A DNA stretch of 27,423 nucleotides from IMG/VR virus record IMGVR_UViG_3300039191_000482, positions 1 through 27,423 of that record, one strand, 5' to 3'. The DNA comes from a virus. Position 1 is the stretch's first letter, and each line of letters starts with the position of its first letter. A model generated the notes under the pieces. That model was not told where the DNA came from. It did not search any database and saw nothing but the letters and a program-made list of their open reading frames with translations. Both the position numbers and the translations under genes were made by a program. Of this stretch, positions 3,121 through 13,793 are shown one piece after another.

Positions 3121-3582
3121 GTGACGCAAGGGCAGAAAAAACTGAGACGGATAGCGATCGGCAGCGCGGCGACAATCGTTCTGGCGGTGATCATCGCCGT
3201 GCTCACGCTGGCGCCGATGCCTGCCGGTGGTCCTGCTGGGTCTGACAAGCTCTACCACGTTCTGGCTTTTGCCTGCCTTGCGTTTCCGCTGCCGTTGGTG
3301 CGGCCGCGACTTGCGATCTGGGTCGTGTTGGGCGTTATTGCCTACGGCGGCGCGATTGAAGTGATCCAACCCTTCTTTGGTCGTCAGGCCGAATGGGCTG
3401 ACCTCGTGGCAGATGGGGTCGGTGCAATCCTCGGGGCGGTTGTTGCGCGTCAACTGGGGCTTTGGCTTCGCAGGTCAGGTGAACCAAACGACAAGGATAA
3501 TCCCATGACCGAAGCCTGGCGGGCCGAAGATGCCGCACTTGCCGGCGACAGTTTCACGTCATCGCGTTCTAGGTCGAAATAA
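3121..3582 (+). CDS. VanZ-like family membrane protein
   Basis: A 153-residue predicted inner-membrane protein. Four hydrophobic segments lie at about 11-31, 45-60, 64-82 and 98-116. The pattern SDKLYHVLAFACLAFPL ... GGAIEVIQPFFGRQAEW ... DLVADGVGAILGA is characteristic of the VanZ-like family, whose founding member gives low-level teicoplanin resistance but whose general function is poorly known. The GTG at 3121 has an AAAGGAG site 7 bases upstream, better than the ATG at 3094. The C-terminus (after about residue 122) is a polar tail ending SRSRSK. It lies after the methyltransferase and converges with the minus-strand cluster. It is probably accessory cargo rather than a phage function. Confidence 0.8.
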   Translation: MTQGQKKLRRIAIGSAATIVLAVIIAVLTLAPMPAGGPAGSDKLYHVLAFACLAFPLPLVRPRLAIWVVLGVIAYGGAIEVIQPFFGRQAEWADLVADGVGAILGAVVARQLGLWLRRSGEPNDKDNPMTEAWRAEDAALAGDSFTSSRSRSK

Positions 3583-4958: not shown

Positions 4959-5243
4959 TCATTCGGAGCGGGCGGTCGCGTCCACCCATGCGTCATCCTG
5001 CCAGACATAAAGATGGCACAGCTCGCAAGTCGGGCGCGGCAGGACGTGCGGGGCGCGCGGCGGGTCGAAACAGTCCAGCGCATCGGCGCTGACCTGCCGG
5101 ATTTCACGGGCGGCAAGGATATCGTCGGGCGTCCAGCGCGCCAGCGCGGGCAGCATGTGGGCCGGGTAGCCGTCAAAGTGAACATAGACGTGGGCCCATT
5201 CCTCTGGCCCGGTCTGAATGGCGATCTGCGCGCGGGTGCTCAT
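4959..5243 (-). CDS. Hypothetical protein (94 aa)
   Basis: Begins MSTRAQIAIQTGPEEWAHVYVHFDGYPAHMLPAL at an ATG preceded by GGGAGAG. The start (S/TRAxIAI followed by a YxHxDGYP-like stretch) is a pattern I associate with small phage and plasmid proteins of unknown role. A CELCHLYVW stretch near the C-terminus holds two cysteines and a histidine. It lies 11 bases after the next upstream gene, so the two are probably co-transcribed. No function can be assigned. Confidence 0.65.
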   Translation of the reverse strand: MSTRAQIAIQTGPEEWAHVYVHFDGYPAHMLPALARWTPDDILAAREIRQVSADALDCFDPPRAPHVLPRPTCELCHLYVWQDDAWVDATARSE

Positions 5244-5254
5244 AATGCTCTCCC

Positions 5255-5473
5255 TCAGATCAGCTGCAAATCAGCCAGCGTGGCACAGGCCGCCGCGAGC
5301 TGGCTGGTGGGCAGTTCGATCTTCAGATGCGAGATCACGTCCGAGGCTTCAGCGGCAATGCCGTGCTCACGCAGTTCGGCCTCAATGGCGGCGGCCACGG
5401 CGTCAGGGCGGGAGCGGTCAAACTGATCAGGCAATGCGGCGTGGTCGATGCGGATGGTTGTGATGGCGGTCAT
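5255..5473 (-). CDS. Small hypothetical protein (72 aa)
   Basis: A 72-residue protein beginning MTAITTIRIDHAALPDQFD. The ATG at 5473 has AAAGG about 8-10 bases upstream. The middle is a predicted amphipathic helix (RPDAVAAAIEAELREHGIAAEA), followed by a strand-like VISHLKIELP segment and a final helix. It is tightly spaced with both neighbours on the minus strand (11 bases on each side), as expected for an operon. Function not recognised. Confidence 0.6.
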   Translation of the reverse strand: MTAITTIRIDHAALPDQFDRSRPDAVAAAIEAELREHGIAAEASDVISHLKIELPTSQLAAACATLADLQLI

Positions 5474-5484
5474 GGTGTGGCCTT

Positions 5485-5667
5485 TCAGGGTTGCTGTTCA
5501 ATCAGGGCAAGGATCGCGCAGGCCATGCCGCCGAGGTATTCGCTGCGGCGAAAGACGATGTCGTCGATCTCGTTTGCGGTGGTGATGCTTGGGTCGACTG
5601 CGAGGTCAGCTGCCATGTGCGGCAGGAGTTTGGCGGCAGCGGCGTTGTAGCGTTCTACGATGGTCAT
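5485..5667 (-). CDS. Small hypothetical protein (60 aa)
   Basis: The first gene of the minus-strand cluster, starting MTIVERYNAAAAKLLPHM at the ATG at 5667, with GAGG upstream. An in-frame ATG at 5682 has no better site. It appears wholly helical and mildly acidic. It diverges from the plus-strand DUF7220 and terminase operon across about 100 bases of A+T-rich sequence that should contain promoters for both directions. Function unknown. Confidence 0.55.
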   Translation of the reverse strand: MTIVERYNAAAAKLLPHMAADLAVDPSITTANEIDDIVFRRSEYLGGMACAILALIEQQP

Positions 5668-5733
5668 GGGCGAGGTCCTCAAATGCGTCGTTTGCGTTGA
5701 GGAATCTTCGCTCTATGGGTCGGGTATATCCAG

Positions 5734-5739
5734 TATAAT
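5734..5739 (+). promoter_or_regulatory. Candidate -10 element (TATAAT) for the packaging/late operon
   Basis: A perfect TATAAT lies in the A+T-rich divergent region 32 bases before the DUF7220 start. No good -35 sits at 16-18 bases upstream, so it would depend on an activator or an alternative contact. The overlapping minus-strand TATACT (5732-5737) could serve the leftward small-gene cluster. Confidence 0.35.
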
Positions 5740-5770
5740 CGTAGCAATTACATGGCTTTATGAGGGGCGG

Positions 5771-5983
5771 ATGGCGCAATCAAGACGCGGGTCCCTGATC
5801 GAGGCTGTGACCAACACAGTGGTGGGGTATGTGCTGGCGGTTGCTACGCAGTTTGCGGTGTTTCCGATCTACGGGCTGAAGGTCGGGGTGCTGGAAAACC
5901 TTGGGTTGGGCCTCGCGTTCACAGCCGTGTCGCTGATCCGTGGGTACGTCCTGCGTCGACTGTTCAATCGCTGGAGGCTGTAA
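5771..5983 (+). CDS. DUF7220 family small membrane protein
   Basis: A 70-residue protein with two hydrophobic segments (VTNTVVGYVLAVATQFAVFPI and GVLENLGLGLAFTAVSLIRGYVL) ending in the basic stretch RRLFNRWRL. The pattern matches the DUF7220 family of phage-encoded small membrane proteins; its function is unknown. The ATG at 5771 has a GAGGGGCG site. It sits 3 bases before the terminase small subunit gene and is probably the first gene of the late transcript. Two membrane spans could suit a holin, but nothing else supports that. Confidence 0.75.
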   Translation: MAQSRRGSLIEAVTNTVVGYVLAVATQFAVFPIYGLKVGVLENLGLGLAFTAVSLIRGYVLRRLFNRWRL

Positions 5984-5986
5984 TCC

Positions 5987-6484
5987 ATGTCGGTTGGCAA
6001 ACCCCGTGGCCAGACCATCACCGTGGCGCAGGCCGCAGCCCTGCTGGGCCGGTCGGAACGCTGGGTCCAGGGCCTCGTCACATCCGGCTACATGGATCGC
6101 GCCACTCGGGGCGAATACACGCTGGTGGGCGTGATCCGAGGGGCGCTGGCCTATTACGAAGACCAGCTGTCCAAAAACAACAAGGCCGCGGTGGCAAGCC
6201 GGGCCACGGAAGCGCGCACGCGTGAGATTGAACTCAGGATTCAGGAACGCAGCCGGGAGTTGATCCCGATGGAGGATGCAAAGGCCGTGGTGGGCGAGAT
6301 GGCGGCGCTGGTGCGGGCGGAGCTTGCGGGGCTTGCTGCGCGCTACACGCGCGACATGGAGGCGCGGCGCGCGCTCGAAGAGGTGATCGATGGCGCGCTG
6401 GAACGCATTGCAGGGGCCGCAGAAAAAGCGGGTACAGCTTTGGTTGCTGGCAGCGGCGATCTGGAGGCCGAGCGAGAAGCGTGA
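5987..6484 (+). CDS. Terminase small subunit, Nu1-like
   Basis: A 165-residue DNA-packaging protein that would recognise the cos or pac site and recruit the large subunit. Residues about 10-55 (ITVAQAAALLGRSERWVQGL, then SGYMDRATRGEYTLVGVIRG) form the winged helix-turn-helix seen in lambda Nu1. A basic helix (EARTREIELRIQERSRELI) and a C-terminal helical region for large-subunit contact follow. The ATG at 5987 has GGAGG 9 bases upstream. It overlaps the terminase large subunit by 95 bases. Confidence 0.85.
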   Translation: MSVGKPRGQTITVAQAAALLGRSERWVQGLVTSGYMDRATRGEYTLVGVIRGALAYYEDQLSKNNKAAVASRATEARTREIELRIQERSRELIPMEDAKAVVGEMAALVRAELAGLAARYTRDMEARRALEEVIDGALERIAGAAEKAGTALVAGSGDLEAEREA

Positions 6485-8453
6485 TCCGGCGGCCTGGGCC
6501 GCGGCCCACCGCATCTATCCCGAAACGGCCGGTATTCCCGGTCCCCGCGATCCAAAGCTGACGCCGTATATGATCCCCTGGTCTGCGGCCGTGCATCGCG
6601 GCGGCTATCGCCGGGTGGTGGCGGTGACCTCGGCACAATCGGGCAAGACCGACAGCATGCTGGACATCATCGGGGCGCGGTTGGACCAACGTCCCGCGCC
6701 AATCTTGTACGTCGGCCCGACGAAGGAGTTTCTGACGGATCAGTTCGAACCGCGGCTGATGGCGCTGCTGGATGAGGCCGACACGCTGGCGAACAAGGTG
6801 GTGCGCGGCCGCCGCATGAAGAAGACGCTGAAGCATGTGGCAGGTGTTCGGCTGCGTCTCGCGCATGCAGGGTCTTCGACGGCGCTGAAGTCCGATCCTG
6901 CCGCGCTCGCGCTGATCGACGAATACGACGAGATGATGGCCAATGTGAAAGGCCAGGGCGATGTGCTCGGGCTGGTGGAAGCGCGCGGCGAGACCTATGC
7001 GGATTTTGTCACGGCGATCACCAGCACACCGGCGCGAGGCCTCGTGGAAATCGAACCGGATGAGATCAGCGGTCTGGAGTTTTGGGCGCGTTCCAACCCA
7101 GATGATCTCGAGAGCCCGATCTGGAAACTGTGGCAGGAGGGCACACGGCACCATTGGGCCTGGCCCTGCAAACATTGCTTGGGCTTCTTCATCCCGCGGT
7201 TCAAGCAGCTGCGCTGGCCTGAGCGCGCGACACCGTCGCAGGCCAAGCAGGCGGCCACACTGGAATGCCCGCGCTGCGGGGGCCAGCACAGCGACACGGA
7301 CAAGCCTTGGATGAACGCCCGCGGGACGATGGTGGCGCCTGGACAAACGGTAACGCTGAAGGACGACGCGCCGCATGTCACTGGCGCGCCAGCGGAAAAC
7401 TCGACGCTGTCGATGTGGACATCGGGGCTGTGCTCGCCCTTTGTCACCTGGGGGCAGCGGGCAGAGACCTACCTCATGGTGCTGCAATCGGGCGACCACG
7501 GCCGGATCCAGACCGCGATGAACGCGGGCTTTGGCGAATGCTACGCCATGACTGCTTCGGGCGATGTGCCGGATTGGCAGGAAATCATGGAGCGCCGCCA
7601 GCCGTATCGGGCGGGTGACGTGCCAGCAGGCGGGCTGCGTCTCGTCATGGGCGTGGACGTCCAAAAGTTCAGCCTGGTCTATGTGATCCGGGCCTTCGGC
7701 GCGCGCGGTACGTCCTGGCTGGTGGAGTTTGGCCAGCTTTACGGGCCCACGGAGGATGACGATGTCTGGTCGGCGCTGGCGGACCTGATGCTGACACCGG
7801 TGGGCGGCATGCAGATCGAGAAGGTGTTTGTGGATTCAGGGTTTCGGCCGGACAAGCCGGAACTGGGCAACGAGCACAAGGTCTATGAGTTCTGTCGGCG
7901 CTACAGCTGGCTCTGTTCGCCCACCAAGGGCCGGGATCAGCAAAACCCGCCGTATCGGGTCTCGAAAATCGAGGTGAAGCCGGACGGTAAACGCGCGCTC
8001 TATTCAATCGATCTGGTGACGCTGTCGACGGATTTCTTCAAATCGCTGGTGATGTCGCGCATCCGCACGCCCGTCGATCAGCCAGGGGCGTTCCATGTCC
8101 ATGAGGCGGTCTCGGAGGATTACTGCAAGCAGCTGACCTCGGAGGCGCGGATTGTGGTGCAGGGCAAGCCGGTCTGGGTCAAACGTTCGCGCAACAACCA
8201 CTTTCTGGACTGTGAGGCGCTCTGTGCTGCCATCGGCTATACGCTGAACGTCCAGCGGATCCCCGAAGGTGTGGAGCGCAAGCTGTCCATTGAGGCGGCG
8301 GTACCCGACGGGCATGACCCGTCAATGGTGGCCGCACCGAAGCCGGACCCACACGGGGCGCCGCTGCCGACATCACGCTCCTCCCAGATCCGTGGCGGCA
8401 GCGGCGCGCTGCGCGGGCGATTTGCGCGCCAGGGCAGCCGATTGAACAGGTAA
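6390..8453 (+). CDS. Terminase large subunit, lambda GpA-like
   Basis: A 687-residue packaging ATPase and nuclease. The Walker A-type motif TSAQSGKT is at residues 80-87 and a Walker B-like LIDEYDE has the acidic pair at 177-178. A Cys4 cluster (Cys260, Cys263, Cys293, Cys296) is typical of the GpA family. The likely nuclease domain begins around the GVDVQKFS motif, with Asp423. The ATG at 6390 lies inside the small-subunit gene with AAGAGG 6 bases upstream; it is the first ATG that keeps the whole conserved N-terminus. The enzyme cuts the concatemer and pumps DNA through the portal encoded just downstream. Confidence 0.93.
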   Translation: MARWNALQGPQKKRVQLWLLAAAIWRPSEKRDPAAWAAAHRIYPETAGIPGPRDPKLTPYMIPWSAAVHRGGYRRVVAVTSAQSGKTDSMLDIIGARLDQRPAPILYVGPTKEFLTDQFEPRLMALLDEADTLANKVVRGRRMKKTLKHVAGVRLRLAHAGSSTALKSDPAALALIDEYDEMMANVKGQGDVLGLVEARGETYADFVTAITSTPARGLVEIEPDEISGLEFWARSNPDDLESPIWKLWQEGTRHHWAWPCKHCLGFFIPRFKQLRWPERATPSQAKQAATLECPRCGGQHSDTDKPWMNARGTMVAPGQTVTLKDDAPHVTGAPAENSTLSMWTSGLCSPFVTWGQRAETYLMVLQSGDHGRIQTAMNAGFGECYAMTASGDVPDWQEIMERRQPYRAGDVPAGGLRLVMGVDVQKFSLVYVIRAFGARGTSWLVEFGQLYGPTEDDDVWSALADLMLTPVGGMQIEKVFVDSGFRPDKPELGNEHKVYEFCRRYSWLCSPTKGRDQQNPPYRVSKIEVKPDGKRALYSIDLVTLSTDFFKSLVMSRIRTPVDQPGAFHVHEAVSEDYCKQLTSEARIVVQGKPVWVKRSRNNHFLDCEALCAAIGYTLNVQRIPEGVERKLSIEAAVPDGHDPSMVAAPKPDPHGAPLPTSRSSQIRGGSGALRGRFARQGSRLNR

Positions 8454-11715: not shown

Positions 11716-12087
11716 ATGACTGTTCTCACAGAAGGCCGGCATCCCGGCGAATTCCTGATGACCGAGGCCAATGGCCAGCGCTCGCGGGAAAATATCACCA
11801 TCGCCAGTGGCGCGGGCATCATCGCCCCGGGCACGGTGCTGGGCAAAATCACCGCCAGCGGCAAATATCTGGCCAGTGCCGTGGGGGCTACGGATGGCAG
11901 TCAGACAGCGGTCGCCATCGCGCTCTATGGCTGTGATGCTTCGGCAAGTGATGTTGCGGTTGCCGGCATCACTCGGGACGCTGAGGTGAACGGCAAGATC
12001 CTGACCTACCATCCCGACCGGGATCAGCCTGCCGAAAAGACGGCGGCCCAGGGTGATCTGGCCGCTGTCGGCATTATCGTGCGATGA
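11716..12087 (+). CDS. Head decoration protein, lambda gpD-like
   Basis: A 123-residue capsid decoration protein that would form trimers stabilising the expanded shell. The pattern HPGEFLMTEANGQRSRENITI, GTVLGKIT and AVAIALYGCDAS, ending in a strand-rich part with QGDLAAVGIIVR, fits the HDPD family. The ATG at 11716 has GAGGAGAC upstream. Its stop codon abuts the stop of hicB on the other strand with no gap. The major capsid gene that should follow directly is pushed away by the hicAB insertion. Confidence 0.88.
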   Translation: MTVLTEGRHPGEFLMTEANGQRSRENITIASGAGIIAPGTVLGKITASGKYLASAVGATDGSQTAVAIALYGCDASASDVAVAGITRDAEVNGKILTYHPDRDQPAEKTAAQGDLAAVGIIVR

Positions 12088-12420
12088 TTAACCAGTGGCC
12101 CGTGACAAGACGTCTTCTGCCCATTGGTTCAGGCTTTTGCCTTCAAGCTCGGCCGCAAGGACGGCTTTGCGGTGCACGTCTGAGCTGACGCGGAACATCA
12201 TCTTACCTGAATAGGCTTTTTGCGGCTCTTTGCCGATCTTTGCACAGGTTTCGAGATAATCGTCGACGGCTTCGTGAAACGCAGCTCGCAGATCGTCAAC
12301 CGTCTCGGCATGAAAGCCAATGCGGTCTCTAATCCCGGCGATATGCCCCACGAAGATGCCATCATCATCGTCGTAATCGATGCGGGCTGCACAGCCTTTG
12401 TAAGTCATGCTGTTGGTCAT
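12088..12420 (-). CDS. hicB: HicB-family antitoxin
   Basis: A 110-residue antitoxin for HicA. The N-terminal part (YKGCAARIDYDDDDGIFVGHIAGIRD, then HAETVDDLRAAFHEAVDDYL) is the RNase H-like HicB fold. The C-terminal part (about 73-107, KMMFRVSSDVHRKAVLAAEL, SLNQWAEDVLSRA) is a ribbon-helix-helix DNA-binding domain, so it probably represses its own promoter at 12680-12707. It starts within the HicA stop (ATGA overlap) and ends against the stop of the decoration gene. It lies antisense within the head operon. Confidence 0.92.
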   Translation of the reverse strand: MTNSMTYKGCAARIDYDDDDGIFVGHIAGIRDRIGFHAETVDDLRAAFHEAVDDYLETCAKIGKEPQKAYSGKMMFRVSSDVHRKAVLAAELEGKSLNQWAEDVLSRATG

Positions 12421-12671
12421 GGCGTCACCTTGATGCGTTCTAAAAAATCACGGGCGTCTCGAACCTGATACCGTTTCGCCTCCTTGCCCGGATGCGGTCG
12501 GTGGAAAGTGGCGATTTCGCCATCTTTTTCGAATCTGACGCGCGAACCACGCCCTTCGATCCGCTGCGCGCTTGCTGCAAGTAGCAATCCCTCAATCGCC
12601 ATCCACTCGATGGTACCGGAAACCGGGTCGGTGAAAACGGCGGCCAAGGTTTTACGGTGCTTACTGTTCAT
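12417..12671 (-). CDS. hicA: HicA-family mRNA interferase toxin
   Basis: An 84-residue toxin of the HicA family, a dsRBD-like fold that cleaves mRNA. Seen are MNSKHRKTLAAVFTDPVSGT, the GSRVRFEKDG motif (about 42-51) and the ATFHRPHPGKEA segment with the likely catalytic His57, then YQVRDARDFL. The ATG at 12671 is chosen because family members begin MNSKHRKTL; two upstream ATGs would put an unrelated hydrophobic extension in front. Toxin-first order is normal for hicAB. The visible motif residues are intact, so it should be active. Confidence 0.92.
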   Translation of the reverse strand: MNSKHRKTLAAVFTDPVSGTIEWMAIEGLLLAASAQRIEGRGSRVRFEKDGEIATFHRPHPGKEAKRYQVRDARDFLERIKVTP

Positions 12672-12679
12672 GCCGAACA

Positions 12680-12707
12680 AAAATACAGATGCTAGCATAA
12701 AATGCAA
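12680..12707 (-). promoter_or_regulatory. hicAB promoter and palindromic operator
   Basis: Minus-strand TTGCAT (-35, 12702-12707) and TATTTT (-10, 12680-12685) are 16 bases apart, 9 bases before the hicA start. The spacer contains the palindrome ATGCTAGCAT (12689-12698). That overlaps a second inverted repeat, GCAT-AAA-ATGC (12695-12705), giving three GCAT/ATGC half-site units between the promoter hexamers. This is a natural binding site for the ribbon-helix-helix domain of HicB. Confidence 0.6.
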
Positions 12708-12761
12708 GCGGTCTTGTTTCTGGCGTGGTCACATGATGCCAAACACTGAGAAGGACCTCCC

Positions 12762-13793
12762 ATGTCGATCCTCAATATCTTCAGTCAGGACGCGTTCAGC
12801 GTCATGCGCCTCACGGATGCGCTTCGTGAGATCAAATACACTCCGTCCCGCATCGGGCAGATGGGGCTGTTCCAGACCTCCAGCATCGACACGCTGGATA
12901 TCGCGATCGAGAAGGACAAGGAACAAAACCGCATGCTGGTCTCGGCCAGCCCCCGCGGTGGCCCGGGCCAGACCTTTGGCAAATCAAAACGCGCCATGCG
13001 GATGCTTAAGGTGCCGCACTTCCAGGTCGACGATGCGATCTATGCCGACGAGGTCCAGCAGGTGCGCGCCTTCGGCCAGGAAGTCGCCGTGGAGCGGTTG
13101 CAGCAGAAGATCGCGGATCGCGCAGCCGAGGCCAGCCAGTTCTTCGCACTGACCGAGGAATACCACCGGCTGAACATCCTCAAGACCGGCCAGCTTCTGG
13201 ACGCTGACGGCTCGGTCCTCTTTGACTATTTCACCGAGTTTGGTGAAAACCAGCAGGCCGTGGTCGATTTTGACCTCGACAATGCCAGCGCCACCGATGG
13301 TGCCCTGCGCAAGAAATGCGCCGGTGTCATCCGCCAGATGGCGGGCATTCTCGACGGTCTGCCCTACACGAGCGTCATCGCGCTGTGTGGCGATGCGTTC
13401 TTCGACGACCTGATCGGCCACAAGGAAGTGCGCGAGACCTACAAGGGCTATGCCGATGCGGCCTCACTGCGCAACGCCTATATCAACTCGGGCAATTCCG
13501 GCATCTACGGCGCGTTCGAGTTCGGCGGCATCACCTGGATGAACTACCGCGGTGGTCAGAATGTGGGCATTGAGACCGACAAGTGCCATCTCGTGCCGAT
13601 GGGCGTGCCCGGGCTGTTCCGCACGGTCTATGCCCCGGCTGATTACATCGAGACGGTGAACACGCCGGGCCAGCGCCTCTATGGCAAGCAGTGGGAAATG
13701 CAGAACGGCAAGGGCGTGAACCTCGAGTTCCAGATGAACGCCCTGCAATACTGCACCCGCCCGCGCGTGCTGATCCCCGGCAAGCGCACCTGA
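12762..13793 (+). CDS. Major capsid protein, lambda gpE-like
   Basis: A 343-residue major head protein of the lambda E family. Diagnostic stretches are AFSVMRLTDALREIKYTPSR at the start, VPHFQVDDAIYADEVQQVRAFG near residue 85, and the central GENQQAVVDFDLDN. The C-terminal part has ITWMNYRGG, CHLVPMGVPGLFRTVYAPAD and GVNLEFQMNALQYCTRPRVLI. The length is typical for the family. The ATG at 12762 has GAAGGA upstream. It follows the hicAB insertion and its promoter region, and is followed by the head-tail joining gene. Confidence 0.93.
   Translation: MSILNIFSQDAFSVMRLTDALREIKYTPSRIGQMGLFQTSSIDTLDIAIEKDKEQNRMLVSASPRGGPGQTFGKSKRAMRMLKVPHFQVDDAIYADEVQQVRAFGQEVAVERLQQKIADRAAEASQFFALTEEYHRLNILKTGQLLDADGSVLFDYFTEFGENQQAVVDFDLDNASATDGALRKKCAGVIRQMAGILDGLPYTSVIALCGDAFFDDLIGHKEVRETYKGYADAASLRNAYINSGNSGIYGAFEFGGITWMNYRGGQNVGIETDKCHLVPMGVPGLFRTVYAPADYIETVNTPGQRLYGKQWEMQNGKGVNLEFQMNALQYCTRPRVLIPGKRT

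Follow-up and report, generated by a model that had tools for sequence, protein, structure and literature searches.

A hicAB toxin-antitoxin pair as an exchangeable module, probably under antisense control, between the decoration and capsid genes of a lambda-type head operon

Main finding

The junction between the head decoration gene D and the major capsid gene E of the analysed virus is occupied by a hicAB toxin-antitoxin (TA) pair, and the identity of this pair is confirmed. With moderate confidence, we consider it to be an autoregulated type II TA system and an exchangeable D-E moron, which would be expressed from the prophage, serve its maintenance or defence, and be crossed in antisense by late transcription. 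The analysed stretch of DNA (the window), a viral record of 27.4 kb (27,423 nt), represents a fragment. Loci of relatives are designated by L-numbers.

Organisation of the locus

The head operon of the window is located entirely on the plus strand and codes for a gpA-type terminase, a lambda-family portal, an S49 protease, D and E (Pfam), with hicB and hicA placed on the minus strand between the last two genes. The following features were delineated:

11716-12087, plus strand: gpD-like head decoration gene D (PF02924, 129 bits)
12088-12420, minus strand: hicB, predicted antitoxin and autorepressor, 110 aa (PF05534, PHROG 9151, AF2 model, dN/dS)
12417-12671, minus strand: hicA, putative toxin, 84 aa, ATG at 12671-12669 (PF07927, PHROG 8887, AF2 model, residue alignment)
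12672-12761, no strand: intergenic stretch of 90 bp between the divergent starts of hicA and E, houses the putative hicAB promoter
12762-13793, plus strand: gpE-like major capsid gene E (PF03864, 294 bits)

A preliminary description had placed hicAB on the minus strand between gpD-like and gpE-like genes, which is borne out by the Pfam and PHROG matches and by the coordinates, as is the direct abutment of the hicB stop (12088) on the D stop (12087). The two hic genes overlap by 4 bp (12417-12420). The sequence AAGGACC, common to other junction alleles, precedes the ATG of E at the E-proximal end of the intergenic stretch. A recount of positions 12241-12300 yielded the same 32 G/C of 60 as reported before, below the surrounding genes. 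The G+C content of hicBA is 54.8%, compared to 62.4% for the window, 62.4% for D and 61.0% for E. It is about 8 points below the window value and the 17th lowest among 537 windows of the same size.

Chance ORFs were rejected as an explanation based on family matches above curated cut-offs, synteny and dN/dS. Megablast found no match to a known phage, PADLOC (a limited library) found no defence family, and neither NCBIfam nor, for the window, Rfam yielded a match. Judging from relatives residing within bacterial genomes, the virus is presumably temperate.

Properties of HicA and HicB

The longest ORF of hicA (12417-12707, minus strand) begins with TTG, and the cassette had been described as ending at 12707. 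This start was rejected, since the extra 12 codons represent promoter/operator DNA and homologues begin at the ATG at 12671. The ATG at 12671-12669 (MNSKHRK...) is almost certainly the true start, and position 12707 falls within the putative promoter.

HicA matches the Pfam family HicA_toxin (PF07927) with 36.1 bits (cut-off 27) and PHROG 8887 ('toxin') with 86 bits. The AF2 model (mean pLDDT 94) has the dsRBD-like fold of the HicA family. With VIA-align, the top five entries (1whz, 6hpb, 6g26, 5yrz and 4p78) gave Z values of 5.4-7.1 and rmsd values of 2.0-2.3 over 55-64 residues. The sixth entry is also a HicA (Z 4.5) and the first unrelated chain has a Z of 4.4.

The G-x-H histidine of HicA was not found; its position is taken by Arg44, which aligns with His26 in the G-D-H of the Paracoccus phage Pben1 toxin (gapless profile alignment) and is shared by 47 of the 48 aligned subfamily members. 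Residues E39, G42, S43, H57, H60, P61 and Y68 are invariant across the 48 members. The H24A mutation of Burkholderia pseudomallei HicA abolishes toxicity (PMC3969222) and the gonococcal toxin requires the equivalent histidine (PMC12297915). Because the essential histidine is Arg44 here and the H24A variant of B. pseudomallei is non-toxic, RNase activity of HicA is not assured. The protein belongs to the family by sequence and predicted fold, and the canonical catalytic residue is absent. Since the residues are so conserved, we favour a subfamily whose active residues are arranged differently over a dead toxin, with toxicity being putative. Of the earlier designation 'intact hicA', the part concerning the reading frame stands, whereas the essential histidine is replaced.

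HicB consists of an N-terminal HicB domain and a C-terminal helical region with predicted DNA-binding function. It matches PF05534 with 75.1 bits (cut-off 21) and PHROG 9151 ('HicB-like antitoxin') with 146 bits. In its AF2 model (mean pLDDT 87), the fold of the N-domain matches HicB structures. The top 11 Foldseek chains are all HicB-family members (probability 0.82-1.00, best E 0.0085), and the PDB matches are headed by 6g26, 6g1n and 2dsy. A search by sequence for solved structures of the HicA/HicB subfamily gave spurious matches only.

Comparison of the D-E junction copies with the window resulted in dN/dS values of 0.03-0.09 for hicA and 0.04-0.09 for hicB; values from very close copy pairs, which have few differences, are higher and unreliable. 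These ratios indicate that both genes are under purifying selection.

Control region of hicAB

Immediately before the hicA ATG lie operator-like repeats of the TGMTWKCA type. Across the homologues, these 8-bp near-palindromes (TGCTTGCA, TGCTAGCA, TGATATCA, TGCTATCA) are present as two to four copies at intervals of about 12-15 bp and overlap the putative promoter. In the window, the region comprises:

12680-12707, minus strand: putative hicAB promoter TTGCAT-16-TATTTT, read from comparison, activity predicted
12690-12697, minus strand: operator-like site TGCTAGCA, from motif comparison across hicA upstream regions
12703-12710, minus strand: further operator-like copy CGCTTGCA, at a distance of 13 bp from TGCTAGCA, from the same comparison

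The motif GCTWGCA/GCTATCA/GCTAGC is present in 64 of 76 distinct regions upstream of hicA homologues, compared to 1.6% in mononucleotide shuffles. Such repeats would be expected if HicB, with its predicted DNA-binding part, represses its own promoter. The putative promoter ends 8 nt before the hicA ATG and is thus near-leaderless. Its TATTTT is weaker than the TATAAT of the Marivita lacus hicAB, in which TTGCAG-16-TATAAT ends 6 nt before the ATG, a layout in which the hicA mRNA would be almost leaderless. A consensus promoter scan reported none in the region, where the hexamers are weak, and is not decisive.

A terminator-like stem on the plus strand (12500-12523) could stop the late transcript. 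It lies inside the hicA coding sequence and is therefore probably fortuitous.

Allelic states of the D-E junction

Capsid searches yielded 80 viral loci and 32 loci from bacterial genomes. Junction states were scored among relatives with alignable D and E, and a tree was based on 103 capsid genes. The junction was found in four states: empty (about 20-75 bp; 26 of the 103), noncoding (113-185 bp, mostly with hairpins; 59), with a minus-strand mini-HicB of 69 aa and without hicA (about 373 bp; 9), and with complete hicAB (about 675 bp; 9). On the E-gene tree, the presence of hicAB requires at least 5 changes and the distribution of all four states at least 11.

Besides the window, seven viral contigs (L051, L054, L058-L061, L082) have complete hicAB at the D-E junction, as do Marivita lacus and an Oricola MAG among the bacterial genomes; in L087, the pair is located beside D. 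Locus L054, which carries hicAB, and the empty loci L053/L049 share an E gene that is 100% identical over 1029 bp, with flanks of 99.8% identity downstream and 96-98% upstream; D is 92% identical and identity resumes at the ATG of E. Likewise, Marivita lacus CGMCC 1.12478 (L161, a cultured lysogen with hicAB) and a Marivita MAG (L162, noncoding) have identical E genes (100%), while the other flanks are more diverged. Between the window and L051, the hicAB DNA is 88% identical, compared to only 74% for D and 71% for the S49 gene, from which it follows that the cassette and E move between backbones. Together with the near-isogenic pairs, these identities indicate that exchange is recent, repeated and mediated by recombination through the flanking genes.

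A recent insertion unique to the window was rejected, since the same cassette is found at the same site in several lineages. Genes missing from close relatives at the same site, as expected of a moron, were found for L054/L053 and L161/L162. The interpretation as a moron with a putative promoter of its own, put forward in the preliminary description, is supported by the empty sites and the differing near-isogenic pairs, by the conserved operator and putative promoter region, by the lower G+C content and by homologues elsewhere. The comparison of the junction in relatives, which that description had proposed, favours a moron. On this comparative basis, hicAB is confirmed as a swappable accessory module, a moron of a known TA family in an unusual, dynamic location.

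The mini-HicB (L163:5650-5859, minus strand; also L164, L036, L038-L040, L052, L055 and L056) consists of the N-domain only, and its loci have neither hicA nor operator repeats; Phaeovulum veldkampii is among its carriers. Between its two lineages, dN/dS is about 0.14-0.21 with a significant synonymous excess; the few changes within one lineage are all non-synonymous.

The last approximately 85 bp before E form a conserved noncoding element with two predicted hairpins in about 60 relatives (L004:3916-4000; GCGTGGCCAG..CTGGCGCGCCGACGCAATAAAGGAC). Covariation is weak, Rfam gave no match for the junction hairpins of relatives, and the element is absent from the hicAB allele of the window. In L175 (Marivita cryptomonadis, 4970-5996), L070 and L071, E looks 2 bp shorter and its frame is apparently broken near residue 26; these prophages are possibly defective.

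Homologues at other sites

Of 395 genomes from the bacterial family that includes Phaeovulum, about a dozen encode HicB relatives of 70-81% identity, located away from D/E. In phages with other head/tail genes, homologous hicAB pairs are placed antisense beside tape-measure genes (L092, L094, L110 and L111) or beside the terminase gene (L095), as checked by PHROG for individual cases; in L116 and others, hicAB follows a portal gene and points the same way. An automatic tally of the orientation of all homologues was mixed and noisy, as choosing the longest ORF yields false ORFs in G+C-rich DNA. From the gene order in these loci, antisense placement in late operons is seen to recur, and we claim no general rule.

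A second site downstream of E

The junction after E measures 7 bp in the window. In relatives it is a second such site, occupied by TA modules or by antitoxins that have no toxin partner:

L042:2879-3250 and 3274-3576, minus strand: HigB (PF09907, 97 bits) and HigA-like antitoxin just after E; L050 and L052 alike
L168:7090-7392 and 7382-7678, plus strand: RelE/Gp49-like toxin and HI1420-type antidote at the same site
L038:5114-5407, plus strand: antidote without toxin; also L036, L039, L040, L047, L163, L164, L048 and L055
L038:5417-5605, minus strand: mini-HigA, a 62-aa N-terminal-only HigA-like piece (PHROG 10398); also L036, L039, L040, L047, L163 and L164

The orphan antidote shows a synonymous excess in two of three comparisons. 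For mini-HigA, the excess is short of significance, and the gene is frameshifted in L048. The toxin-less antitoxins, mini-HicB included, may function as counter-toxins or else be remnants in decay.

A broader reading, which we put forward tentatively and consider unlikely, is that TA modules and antitoxins without a toxin are exchanged at both junctions flanking E. The complete TA alleles (hicAB at D-E, HigBA or RelE-like pairs after E) would be active in the lysogen, with those in antisense being silenced late, while the solitary antitoxins of other alleles, two of which (mini-HicB and mini-HigA) have no DNA-binding part, would neutralise toxins of rival prophages or hosts. If so, recombination at the capsid gene would spread immunity and counter-immunity together. 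The two-sided hot spot around the capsid gene is the newest part of this analysis and a lead worth pursuing.

Proposed role and alternative explanations

The carriers appear to form a prophage family with lambda-type head genes in Rhodobacterales and related Alphaproteobacteria. HicB would neutralise HicA, and its DNA-binding part would repress the shared promoter at the TGMTWKCA-type operators. In the lysogen, expression of hicAB from the minus strand would favour retention of the prophage, with prophage-losing cells being harmed, and would perhaps block competing phages. Alleles would be swapped by homologous recombination within D and E on either side. As E is located downstream of D and the gap between hicA and E is only 90 bp, late transcription of the plus strand very probably extends across hicAB. 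Lytic growth would thereby turn hicAB expression down, and this shut-down would spare the late messages of the phage from an mRNA-cutting toxin. We infer the toxicity of HicA, lysogenic expression, antisense interference and benefit from precedents as well as from the locus. In a Paracoccus prophage, a hicAB pair oriented opposite to its neighbours stabilises a plasmid (PMC6536676), and one member of a HicAB-like pair of phage Adephagia is toxic (PMC11594946). In Staphylococcus aureus phages, antisense 'noncontiguous' operons control a prophage defence gene (PMC11087260). By analogy to that architecture, hicAB is likely turned down in lytic growth. A shift of the toxin/antitoxin balance by late antisense RNA, superinfection exclusion and prophage maintenance, as considered in the preliminary description, are plausible.

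The same geometry might instead lead to toxin release on induction: late antisense RNA would lower both messages, HicB would be gone first, and HicA would be freed late, to act in abortive infection or superinfection exclusion or to help lysis. Antitoxins of type II systems are, as a rule, labile, and the antisense arrangement is clear. A documented precedent exists for antisense control over a prophage defence gene (PMC11087260). However, free HicA would endanger the late mRNAs of the phage, and the S. aureus architecture switches the harmful protein off upon induction (PMC11087260); we regard late toxin release as unlikely. Also unlikely, in our view, is that hicAB is a neutral passenger drifting in and out, whose antisense placement simply avoids overexpression of a sense toxin from the late promoter. 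Recent gain and loss, the empty alleles and the mixed orientation tally over all homologues are consistent with this, but the low dN/dS and intact operator repeats of the D-E copies argue against it, as does the repeated antisense placement of the same subfamily in other late operons.

The substitution of the catalytic histidine by arginine raises the question of whether HicA is RNase-dead and the pair is kept for another purpose, e.g. with HicB as a decoy against HicA of the host or a rival, or as a regulator. The truncated, toxin-less mini-HicB at the same site in relatives and the homologous hicAB that host-group genomes carry at places other than D-E would fit such a role. We nevertheless find it unlikely: dN/dS values of 0.03-0.09 and seven invariant residues resemble a retained active site, and His57 and His60 possibly serve as the active-site histidines.

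If the preferred explanation of an autoregulated, prophage-expressed TA moron is right, near-isogenic relatives that share a capsid gene and differ in hicAB provide a natural test of prophage TA function. The HicA subfamily would then keep the fold, but not the histidine thought to be essential, and the swap sites flanking the capsid gene would bear on how phages trade immunity and counter-immunity.

Comparison with known systems

Like members of the HicAB family (PF07927/PF05534; B. pseudomallei, Escherichia coli, Yersinia pestis), the pair of the window is a two-gene operon with the toxin gene first. It shares the predicted dsRBD-like fold of HicA and the N-domain fold of HicB, the operator repeats at the promoter and a C-terminal part of HicB that is expected to bind DNA. 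It differs in that His24 of B. pseudomallei corresponds to Arg44, and the window HicA features an extra N-terminal helix with the conserved MNSKHRK as well as an HRPHP motif with the invariant His57 and His60.

The HicAB of Paracoccus phage vB_PbeS_Pben1 (PMC6536676) also belongs to an alphaproteobacterial prophage and is oriented opposite to its neighbours. However, it is located in the early region near cro, outside the head operon, and its HicA is a canonical 62-aa protein with the G-D-H histidine and a distant relative of the window protein (hhalign E 0.002). The HicAB pairs of the lambdoid phages mEp234 and HK106 are likewise phage-borne, with a HicB that is 41% identical and a HicA with an FHEPHP-type motif, but are found in the immunity region beside cI and in the same direction as cI.

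In the noncontiguous Tha/Ith operon, found in S. aureus phages, a prophage defence gene and an antisense transcript are placed such that lysogenic and lytic expression are mutually exclusive (PMC11087260); the window is compared to it by its geometry. The proteins of Tha/Ith are different, and most of the effect there comes from a protein inhibitor encoded in antisense.
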